A DNA stretch of 64,000 bases, taken from contig NZ_CP061800.1 in the NCBI RefSeq assembly GCF_017377395.1, positions 2,480,001 through 2,544,000 of the forward strand, read 5' to 3'. Below, one piece after another: positions 48,790 to 54,740 of this stretch. The notes beneath the pieces were generated by a model. The model saw only the letters and a list, made by a program, of their open reading frames with translations. It was not told the DNA's origin and searched no databases. Numbering within the stretch: position 1 is the stretch's first letter; the number at the start of each line of letters is the position of its first letter. A program made the translations under genes and the position numbers. This DNA is from Desulfonema magnum (lineage in GTDB: Bacteria > Desulfobacterota > Desulfobacteria > Desulfobacterales > 4be13).

Positions 48790-49200
48790 GATCGAAAAAT
48801 TTTTCCGGAGCGCAAAAACAGAGCGAAGCGGTTTTTTTGCCGTTGATCGAAAAACTTTTCCGGAGCGCAAAAACAGAGCGAAGCGGTTTTTTGCTGTTGA
48901 TCGAAAAACTTTTCCGGAGCGCAAAAACAGAGCGAAACGGTTTTTTGCTGTTGATCGAAAAACTTTTCCGGAGCGCAAAAACAGAGCGAAACGGTTTTTT
49001 GCTGTTGATCGAAAAACTTTTCCGGAGTGCAAAAACAGAGCGAAACGGTTTTTTGCTGTTGATCGAAAAACTTTTCCGGAGCGCAAAAACAGAGCGAAGC
49101 GGTTTTTTGCTGTTGATCGAAAAACTTTTCCGGAGTGCAAAAACAGAGCGAAGCGGTTTTTTGCTGTTGATCGAAAAACTTTTCCGGAGCGCAAAAAAGT
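48790..49200. repeat. Array of 54-bp repeats (eight units)
   Basis: Units begin GATCGAAAAA at 48790, 48845, 48899, 48953, 49007, 49061, 49115 and 49169. The first is 55 bp, the others 54 bp and the last is cut. Each has CTTTTCCGGAGCGCAAAAAC and a hairpin GCAAAAACAGAGCGAAGCGG with TTTTTTGC. A closing palindrome (GGAGTGCAAAAATAGAGCG, GCACTTTTTTGCGCTCC on the minus strand) reaches to about 49232. The period is a multiple of three, so long artefact frames run through both strands. Confidence 0.93.
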
Positions 49201-51063: not shown

Positions 51064-51376
51064 TCAGTCAACAGAAAAAAACTCGATAGTCGAGTATCAA
51101 TATTTCTTCCAAATGATGTATTAAACATGACCCGTCACCATCTTTTACTTATTGATATATTTCTGAATAACAGGAAAAGTCTCAGATTCCTGAATTTTTA
51201 GCTTGACATGCTCATTTGTTTTATGGTTATTTGTAGCAAAACTATTTTCTGTCATTCCTGCGAAAGCAGGAATCCACTGCCCCGGAACCGCAGAATCAGC
51301 AGAAAACAGATTCTCCTGCTTTCGCAGGAATGACATGCTGTCCGGCAGGATCGGAGCAAAAAACTTGATCACCGAG
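51064..51376. repeat. Family G element with GAAAGCAGGAATCC words
   Basis: ACTCGATAGTCGAGT near the left and ACTTGATCACCGAGT near the right bound a stretch. It contains TGTCATTCCTGCGAAAGCAG, GAATCCACTGCCCCGGAACC and the inverted CTGCTTTCGCAGGAATGACA. No gene is supported in 50919-51480. Confidence 0.55.
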
Positions 51377-51481
51377 TAATAAAAAATTCTCTCTTTTACC
51401 CAAAAAAGGAGCAGCGAATAAAGTTATGAGATAAACAAAAGCGCGCTGAAAAATAACATATAGTTTTGCGTTAACGTAGTT

Positions 51482-51634
51482 GTCGTCCCGACTAAAAACC
51501 GCCAATTTTTAACCTACAGGACGATGCTGACGGAGACGCGCCCGTACGGGCGCGGCTCTTGTTTGTGTCCTGTGGGTGGGTGCTTGGCGGTACCTTAGTT
51601 GGGGCGTGAACACAGAGTCTGCGCCCTTTTTTTT
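51482..51634 (+). ncRNA. Candidate structured RNA with terminator
   Basis: Nested pairing on the plus strand is striking. A small GTCG-TCC-CGAC hairpin (51482-51492) comes first. Then CCGCCAA (51499-51505) pairs with TTGGCGG (51584-51590), ACCTACAGGAC (51512-51522) with GTCCTGTGGGT (51567-51577, one wobble), and CGCGCCCG with CGGGCGCG (51537-51554). It ends in GGGCGT-13-GCGCCC followed by eight T (51602-51634), a good terminator. An overlapping minus-strand frame is low-complexity and probably a shadow. The layout recalls HEARO/omega-type RNAs, but no HNH nuclease gene follows, and I hold that likeness only loosely. The 51635-51825 stretch before the next gene shows nothing else. Confidence 0.5.
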
Positions 51635-51825
51635 GGGGCCGGAGAGAAATTCTCTGATGAATCAAAATGTCTCCGTCAGAAAACCTGCCTTTTATACTTC
51701 TCTTCTGAAAGATTTCTGCACATCGGGCAGAAATATCTTTTTCCCACAACTGCCTGATATTGTCAGATCCCCTTTTCTTTTGACCTCCATGCCCGGGGTT
51801 TCCGCATCCGGGGAGGAGGAACTCC

Positions 51826-52770
51826 GTGTGGGATAAAAAGAAAAAAATAGCAGCTTCGTGCCTTGCCATCCTTATAAGTGTGGCCTTTTATCTGCTTTCA
51901 AATGTGAATCTGGCAGGCATTGATTCGAGGTCCGACAGATATTTCAGGGATCTGCTGAAAAAAACAGCGCTTTCCTATGCGAGCGTGAGAGGCATCAATG
52001 CCGTGGTTTCCATGATCAAGGATTCGGATATGTCAATCTCCCCCACAGGCGTGGGGGTCAATATCGCGGTGGGGCAGATTCTTGATCCCATAGATGATAT
52101 GACAGAAAGGCTGTCCTCTGTTCTGGTGGCTTCAATAGCATCTCTGGGTGTTCAGAAAGTCGCCATGGAAATAGGCAATTCTGTCTGTTTCAAAATCATA
52201 TCCTTTGCATTTCCCCTGCTTCTTATTCCCCTGTGGCTGAACAGAAAATATTCCGCCAGCGTTTTTTCCCTGTCTGTGAAAACAGTAAGCCTCTGTCTGA
52301 TTCTGAGATTTTTCCTTCCCTTGTCCGCAATTGCCGATGACCTGATTTACAAACATTTTTTTGAAAGTCAGATAGCAGAGGCCAAAGTGGGACTGGCGCT
52401 GATTCCCTCGGACTCCTCAGCCAGTCTCGGTGATGTCGGTGACATACAGAAAGAGAGCGGTATATGGGAAAAGGCAAAAGGCACGTACAACACTGTCAGA
52501 GTGAAAACCAGGGAGTTCAGGGAAGCTTTTTCCCGCATAAAAGACAATGCCGATGAAATAACAGACTCATTACTGAAACTGGTTACGGCTTATATTGCGT
52601 TGTTCATTTTTCAGGTCATTGTCATTCCCCCGGGAGTGCTGTGGATTCTGGTGAAACTGTCCGGCAAAGTGTTTGATACTGATTTTGAGGATAAAATTTT
52701 ATCCCGTTTCAGACCGGAACATGACAAAACAGAAGTCGCTCCAAAGGCGGAGGGAGGGATTGCTTTATGA
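51826..52770 (+). CDS. Uncharacterised integral membrane protein
   Basis: 314 residues from GTG 51826, with GGAGGAGGA five bases upstream. TM1 is at about 6-24 (IAASCLAILISVAFYLLSN). A central region at about 25-115 is amphipathic (TALSYASVRGINAVVSMIKD, GVGVNIAVGQILDPIDDMTE). TM helices lie at about 120-140 (ISFAFPLLLIPLWL), about 148-170 (VKTVSLCLILRFFLPLSAI) and about 255-282 (TAYIALFIFQVIVIPPGVLW). A charged helical stretch at about 205-250 comes between them and the tail is acidic. I do not recognise a family with a known job; similar conserved membrane proteins occur in varied Proteobacteria. It stands alone before the toxin-antitoxin island. Confidence 0.75.
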   Translation: MWDKKKKIAASCLAILISVAFYLLSNVNLAGIDSRSDRYFRDLLKKTALSYASVRGINAVVSMIKDSDMSISPTGVGVNIAVGQILDPIDDMTERLSSVLVASIASLGVQKVAMEIGNSVCFKIISFAFPLLLIPLWLNRKYSASVFSLSVKTVSLCLILRFFLPLSAIADDLIYKHFFESQIAEAKVGLALIPSDSSASLGDVGDIQKESGIWEKAKGTYNTVRVKTREFREAFSRIKDNADEITDSLLKLVTAYIALFIFQVIVIPPGVLWILVKLSGKVFDTDFEDKILSRFRPEHDKTEVAPKAEGGIAL

Positions 52771-53250: not shown

Positions 53251-53570
53251 GGAGGGACGGGCCGAAAATAGCCCGGCCCTCTTATAAAATAAGATATTGC
53301 CGGGGTTCGGATACACACAATTTTTTCAGTCCCGCAGGGACGGTCCGAAGCCATGCAGTTTTTCGGTGGTCCCCACGGGACTCGGCTAATTTTGTCTGCT
53401 CCGTCCCCCGGCAATGAATTGCCGGGCTATTCTTATTCGTCCCTCCGGGACTGAACCTATGCCCCATCTGTGCGCCGCAGTTCCAAGTAATGAATCCGAA
53501 TCTTCACGCAATTTTTTCATGAAACCGGATTTTTCCAAAAAATCCGGTTTCTTTTTGGGCTGTTTTGTGG
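53251..53570. repeat. 320-bp direct repeat, left copy
   Basis: From CCCGGAGGGACG to GGCTGTTTTGTGG. It includes TATTGCCGGGGTTCGGATAC, CCGAAGCCATGCAGTTTTTC, the palindromic CCCCGGCAATGAATTGCCGG and the GAAACCGGATTTTTCC / AATCCGGTTTC hairpin. The right copy lies at 54418-54740; the HEPN gene pair lies between them. Confidence 0.88.
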
Positions 53571-54417: not shown

Positions 54418-54740
54418 CCCGGAGGGACGAATGAGAATAGCCCGGCCCTCTTATAAAATCAGATATTGCCGGGGTTCGGATACACACAATTTTTTCAGTC
54501 CCGCAGGGACGGTCCGAAGCCATGCAGTTTTTCGGTGGTCCCCACGGGACTCGGCTAATTTTGTCTGCTCCGTCCCCCGGCAATGAATTGCCGGGCTATT
54601 CTTATTCGTCCCTCCGGGACTGAACCTATGCCCCATCTGTGCGCCGCAGTTCCAAGTAATGAATCCGAATCTTCACGCAATTTTTTCATGAAACCGGATT
54701 TTTCCAAAAATTTCGATTTCTTCTTTGGCTGTTTTGTGAT
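54418..54740. repeat. 320-bp direct repeat, right copy
   Basis: It matches 53251-53570 almost base for base through CCGAAGCCATGCAGTTTTTC, CCCCGGCAATGAATTGCCGG and ATGAATCCGAATCTTCACGC. It differs mainly in the last 50 bases (AAAAATTTCGATTTC instead of AAAAAATCCGGTTTC). A further AAACCGGATTTTTTC / AAAATCCGGTTTC hairpin stands just before it at 54363-54394. Confidence 0.88.

Follow-up and report, generated by a model that had tools for sequence, protein, structure and literature searches.

What is the palindromic element at positions 51482-51634 of the window, the 64,000-nucleotide stretch of the 8.03-Mb Desulfonema magnum genome analysed here (NZ_CP061800.1, positions 2,480,001 to 2,544,000)? 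An initial annotation, made from the letters alone, proposed a structured RNA with three nested stems and a separate terminator, either a solo copy of a HEARO/omega-type RNA or a new RNA. All three stems are found where they had been placed, and the sequence confirms their nesting:

51499-51505 / 51584-51590, plus strand: stem 1, CCGCCAA / TTGGCGG
51512-51522 / 51567-51577, plus strand: stem 2, ACCTACAGGAC / GTCCTGTGGGT
51537-51544 / 51547-51554, plus strand: stem 3, CGCGCCCG / CGGGCGCG

The run of eight T proposed for the 3' end is present at 51627-51634, and a fourth, outermost tier (CGTCCCGACTAA / TTAGTTGGGGCG), overlooked initially, is also present. The 221 nt from 51440 to 51660 have a folding energy of -99.4 kcal/mol, compared with -69.8 ± 4.6 kcal/mol for 200 dinucleotide shuffles (z = -6.42), none of which folds equally well.

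For this RNA, a search of the window against Rfam 15 returned no family at the gathering score and nothing credible at E ≤ 10 on 51400-51700. HEARO, the omega RNA of IscB (RF02033), is a hairpin-rich intergenic RNA of about 200 nt that lies ahead of a gene, and to that extent it resembles the RNA described here; its conserved sequence differs, however, and the proposal of a solo copy is not supported, as neither the window nor any of 29 homologous loci matched HEARO. The HEARO covariance model was silent on the whole genome and likewise on control genomes, no gene resembling IscB was noticed next to the copies, and neither an HNH nor a RuvC family is among the 25 most frequent Pfam families of 98 downstream proteins. 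6S RNA (RF00013), a long hairpin of about 180 nt with internal loops, also bears a likeness to this RNA. It was rejected, the genome's sole 6S match lying elsewhere (C1:7427934-7428116, 102.8 bits); unlike 6S RNA, the RNA here is multicopy, two-state and linked to genes.

Other features of the window include two Acido-Lenti-1 RNAs (RF01687) on the plus strand (53407-53452 and 54576-54621, 49.5 bits each), both inside a 300-nt direct repeat (53264-53563 / 54433-54732, 98% alike), and a tandem array at 48790-49197 (54-nt unit, 7.5 copies, 97% match) that extends into the N-terminus of a mechanically called ORF. Directly upstream of the RNA, an inverted repeat seen by eye (51250-51275 / 51310-51335, TGTCATTCCTGCGAAAGCAGGAATCC...) resembles a small palindromic repeat element.

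Two mutually exclusive folds

The D. magnum genome holds two copies of the RNA, the second on the minus strand at C1:7526242-7526416, where it precedes a C25-propeptide protein, and six other genomes of the order carry one to four full copies each. Of 18 stretches fetched and aligned, 17 full copies, the window's included, were retained (alignment A1); a search of the order with model R1, in which 8/340 genomes match, additionally picked up G251 (107 bits) and two copies in G035:C989, which were omitted from the alignment. Where a palindrome matched on the minus strand as well, that second match was disregarded. RNAalifold, applied to the 17 copies, returned a two-domain fold and not the hairpin described initially. 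In the long tiered hairpin (state A), strand U pairs with strand D and M5 with M3; in the other fold (state B), a 5' domain (U:M5) is followed by a 3' domain (M3:D), the latter a large predicted U-tract terminator. Both states draw on the same strands and cannot form together. The hairpin first recognized thus stands as one of two folds, its competitor having been missed, and the GC stem with its T run is confirmed not as a separate terminator but as the 3' part of the second fold; the 5' arm of that stem, GGGGCG, also serves to close the long hairpin. The parts of the RNA and its neighbourhood are as follows, with the hexamer and the U-tract read directly from the sequence:

51459-51464, plus strand: -10-like hexamer TATAGT, directly 5' of a conserved GCGTT
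51468-51635, plus strand: whole two-state RNA, delimited by its 16 full homologues elsewhere in the order (model R1, 202 bits)
51468-51495, plus strand: strand U, paired with M5 as the 5' domain of state B or with D as the outer stem of state A
51498-51505, plus strand: core ACCGCCAA, displayed in B as the loop that tops the 5' apical hairpin (AAA..UUU) and paired in A as the core helix
51510-51543, plus strand: strand M5, partner of U (B) or M3 (A, antiterminator)
51548-51577, plus strand: strand M3, partner of M5 (A) or D (B, 5' arm of the terminator)
51578-51595, plus strand: 3' apical hairpin GGGUGC..GUACCU, which displays core' UUGGCGGU (51584-51591), the complement of the core
51595-51626, plus strand: strand D, closing the long hairpin with U (A) or forming the terminator with M3 (B)
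51627-51634, plus strand: terminator U-tract, common to other copies
51826-52770, plus strand: next sizeable gene, 314 aa from a GTG start, its product resembling a membrane protein by eye

Compensatory change holds both folds, A strongly and B less so. Among the 17 Desulfobacterota copies, 92.7% of alignment cells are paired in state A and 18 of its 48 pairs show two-sided change (score 0.304, shuffled 0.163), while for state B the corresponding values are 95.8% and 13 of 45 (score 0.238, shuffled 0.169); both scores exceed those of 500/500 shuffles and of every slid control. As shuffles ignore relatedness, we added a test in which strands are exchanged with the nearest relative, copies more than 97% alike being dropped. 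All four helices are weakened by the exchange in Bacteroidota (n = 94, p from 1.2e-7 to 2.5e-16), and U:D, M5:M3 and U:M5 are weakened in the Desulfobacterota-type set (n = 19), where the effect on M3:D is not significant (p 0.2). Swaps with all other copies agree (60 pattern-found and 60 model-found copies). In 13 closely related Bacteroidetes copies, picked for aligning well (alignment A5), A covaries (16/49 pairs two-sided) and B shows conserved pairing only, with 0/51 two-sided changes and a score of 0.120 against 0.120 shuffled; an alignment of 64 model matches (A3) was too poor in its middle and was kept out of these counts. The summed strand-pair energies are similar between states (means of -55.8 kcal/mol for A and -53.0 kcal/mol for B), and strands that pair in both states are conserved while those that pair in one vary freely. 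The original suggestion of a structured RNA with a terminator, perhaps a new one, is therefore borne out by plentiful homologues with compensating changes, the very search that the initial annotation had recommended.

The apical loops are free to differ in sequence from copy to copy. In 55/60 copies found by model R3, a core of 7-9 nt stands after an A-rich triplet, with its exact complement placed before NCC, and the far-side GGN matches N in 52/55 (38/39 for ACC, 12/14 for GCC and 2/2 for CCC); some two dozen different core sequences occur among the R3-found copies. Given a core and its exact complement, the two hairpins of state B have loops that are complementary to each other, and state A joins the same letters in one helix. 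In 61 pattern-type copies the free letters are always complementary (C..G in 58 and G..C in 3; U..A in 57 and G..C in 4) and never mixed. Several copies of one genome can have a core sequence in common, so that the cores need not be strictly orthogonal.

Distribution and gene context

A core-based pattern, in which both letters of two pairs were free, found 60 stretches in the genome collection, mostly from Bacteroidales and other Bacteroidetes by title; further titles are Desulfobacterota, Lentisphaerae, Victivallales, Kiritimatiellae, Phycisphaerales and Nitrospinia (PVC records included), although single phylum labels are uncertain, many of the records being MAGs. Model R3, built from 32 Bacteroidetes copies, re-found 35/35 searchable genomes among 36 source genomes (1 to 14 copies each, E ≤ 0.001) and matched 61/395 sampled Bacteroidota genomes, about one in six. 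In the window's class it matched 7/340 genomes, every one an already known carrier, which argues for few false matches. Four patterns run on viral contigs gave 0, 0, 2 and 4 places (six in all, L261-L266), where the RNA lies ahead of putative lipoproteins and of proteins that resemble restriction enzymes by eye; in L265 it follows apparent lysis genes and may head a phage accessory gene.

TATAGT at 51459-51464 is likely to be a promoter element of the RNA, and TAAAGT-like hexamers occur at the equivalent place in other copies; no clear -35 element was seen. With such a promoter, the RNA would start near 51468-51471. At the other end, a U-tract (7 or more T in any 10-nt run of the final 24 nt) is present in 111/121 copies against a background of 11.2%, in a set where at least two places are counted twice (L100 = L192, L128 = L246) and near-copies occur. 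Attenuators are marked by a GC-rich stem running directly into a U-tract, by a conserved alternative fold that excludes the terminator, and by position in the 5' leader of a same-strand gene. The first is found here; the second is found also, with weaker support for state B; and, judged by position, the RNA would lie in such a leader. We consider it probable that these RNAs form a new family of cis-acting two-state leaders, that is transcription attenuators, each with its own promoter and placed just ahead of one gene.

It could be argued instead that the element is a free-standing, trans-acting sRNA with an ordinary terminator that merely lies upstream of genes, its two folds being two conformations. 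Its own promoter-like hexamer, strong terminator, many copies per genome and varied downstream genes would all suit such an RNA, but we regard this as unlikely from the way the genes are arranged. The next ORF (at least 80 aa) is on the same strand in 99 of the 107 loci with enough sequence, at a median gap of 55 nt, whereas the upstream side is random (same strand in only 26/48). First same-strand ORFs of at least 60 aa, called mechanically in a 106-ORF set that omits L100, L119, L128 and L111, start within 20 nt of the RNA end in 29/106 and within 40 nt in 44/106, and the latter leave little room for another promoter. A short protein of about 70 aa, mostly with an M[IV]HIG start, follows the RNA at L083, L103, L106, L110, L112, L125, L130, L131, L192, L193 and L209; in gut-type Bacteroidales, 10/11 of these ORFs start before or no more than 9 nt after the RNA end, at the U-tract itself, which also speaks against a free-standing sRNA. 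One such protein had no match in Pfam, and by eye it could be a DNA-binding regulator.

The genes in question have little in common. Among 98 of the 106 ORFs searched (set A6, in which the window entry was replaced by the 314-aa ORF) there is no shared family, no Pfam family occurring in more than 5/98 proteins, and this absence of a shared function is odd for a regulon. PAS sensors, Lcl_C, BspA-type LRR, NHL repeats and type IX sorting tails are represented, as are N6 and N4 DNA methylases, HsdM and a C5 methylase, with single cases of a dynamin-like GTPase and of an Mrr/ResIII restriction enzyme; 48/106 ORFs look exported or membrane-bound by an ad hoc hydrophobicity rule. In the window, the gene at 51826-52770 is presumed to be the one regulated, and its 314-aa product has no Pfam, PADLOC or NCBIfam match.

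Another possibility is a mobile repeat or recombination site (a MITE, a REP or an integron attC-like joint) whose hairpins serve DNA transactions and not gene control. The unit is dispersed and multicopy, and arrays include places where a 5' block stands alone, with the full copy about 1-4 kb further downstream. The likeness of copies in different contexts often stops within about 15 nt on both sides; L111 and L133 are 99.6% identical over 536 nt and diverge right after the terminator, with different genes following. We nevertheless find this improbable, as the orientation to the gene is strict and a U-tract is present, the copies are diverged yet compensated, unlike the products of fresh transposition, and the one Bacteroidales copy tried had no match in plasmid and phage collections. 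An integron cassette or attC was rejected as a general account, an integrase scoring above cut-off in only 4/30 carrier genomes. Similar copies in different settings often have in common only the RNA and about 10-50 nt upstream, which suggests that the unit moves or recombines together with its promoter, ahead of changing genes. Two RNA-like matches lie in tandem in each of two records (L111:7463-7937, minus strand, and L133:4260-4734).

Stand-alone 5' domains that lack the terminator half occur at L040:4181-4265, L044:10312-10394 (minus strand), L055:6300-6380 (minus strand) and L043:5129-5212; they align with the remaining copies, some lie 1-4 kb upstream of full ones, and an AAGGAGG site follows two of them. 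These domains, and the succession of sensor, antiterminator and terminator, might suggest a metabolite riboswitch in which the 5' domain is the aptamer for one small molecule and the remainder an OFF-type expression platform, but this is very unlikely given that the best-conserved parts are the strands that pair in both states, that the loop varies and no unpaired pocket was seen to be constant, and that the downstream genes share no family or pathway.

Predicted mechanism of the proposed leader RNA

For the attenuator that we favour, the best reading is that the RNA would choose co-transcriptionally between read-through (state A) and termination (state B). U would pair with M5 first, forming the 5' domain, whose loop would hold the core; as M3 emerges, M5 would switch from U to M3 to give the antiterminator, aided by core:core' pairing. 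Once this exchange is done, the freed U would capture the emerging D, the long hairpin would lock, the terminator would be blocked and the polymerase could read into the gene, so that state A is presumably ON. If the 5' domain were instead held, by a protein, a ligand, the ribosome or another RNA, M3 would remain free to pair with D and the U-tract terminator would release the transcript, making state B the putative OFF state.

Computed folding of the nascent window RNA is consistent with this order, with the 5' domain appearing at 82-98 nt and M5:M3, present by 114-122 nt, replacing it between 106 and 122 nt, followed by U:D closure. In partial transcripts that end before D, M5:M3 is predicted in 121/121 copies, and the computed minimum at full length is A in 114/121 and B-like in 7/121. 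Folding the halves apart is on average 12.7 kcal/mol worse, an energy that leaves out loop-loop pairing. Since A is the computed minimum and the halves are worse, B would need something to hold it, and no such factor was found. The model puts the direct path from B back to A at about 45 kcal/mol, a cost at which the RNA would commit itself only once, while it is being transcribed. From the folding order and the minima together, we take read-through as the default and holding of the 5' domain as the cause of termination.

Attenuators and OFF-type riboswitch platforms are built from sequential, mutually exclusive hairpins (1:2, 2:3 and 3:4 in the trp type) with an intrinsic terminator in the 5' leader. 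The RNA here is similar to the trp type in its leader position and in its exclusive hairpins, which end in a predicted terminator. It differs in that its first strand also pairs with the last strand of the terminator, which would make the ON state a closed four-strand fold, in that its apical loops are complementary, and in that no leader peptide or metabolic regulon was seen. Our verdict is that of a new RNA family which, by its layout, would be a cis-acting attenuator with an unusual closed ON state.

A literature search with a core 12-mer and related terms (supplements aside) found no description of this element. Palindromic predicted terminators of Bacteroidetes, with HTH_XRE as the commonest domain directly downstream, are reported in the available portion of Fremin and Bhatt 2021 (PMC8040213); its candidates are 80-132 bp long and that portion describes no two-state fold, and, compared by description, some of our gut copies may overlap with them. 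A 2010 motif list (PMC2864571), in its available part, includes motifs without an Rfam number, such as GUCCY-hairpin and Desulfotalea-1, which are known here by name only.

A wider proposal, which we put forward as speculation and think unlikely, is that of a gene-independent RNA switch which would be coupled, in bacteria and in a few phage-like contigs, to accessory genes that are costly, working by a four-strand exchange seeded by complementary loops, with copy-specific loops as barcodes that pair in trans too and so form an RNA-only network. If true, the costly accessory genes would be those for surface proteins, restriction-modification and sensors, and a copy could be switched in trans by a 5' domain that stands alone or by that of a different transcript. 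An RNA of about 180 nt with two compensated, exclusive folds is present in several phyla, yet is not in Rfam 15. The two folds yield exact predictions for paired mutants. As it precedes restriction-modification genes, exported proteins and sensor kinases without a single pathway, the RNA may serve accessory genes in general as a control module.
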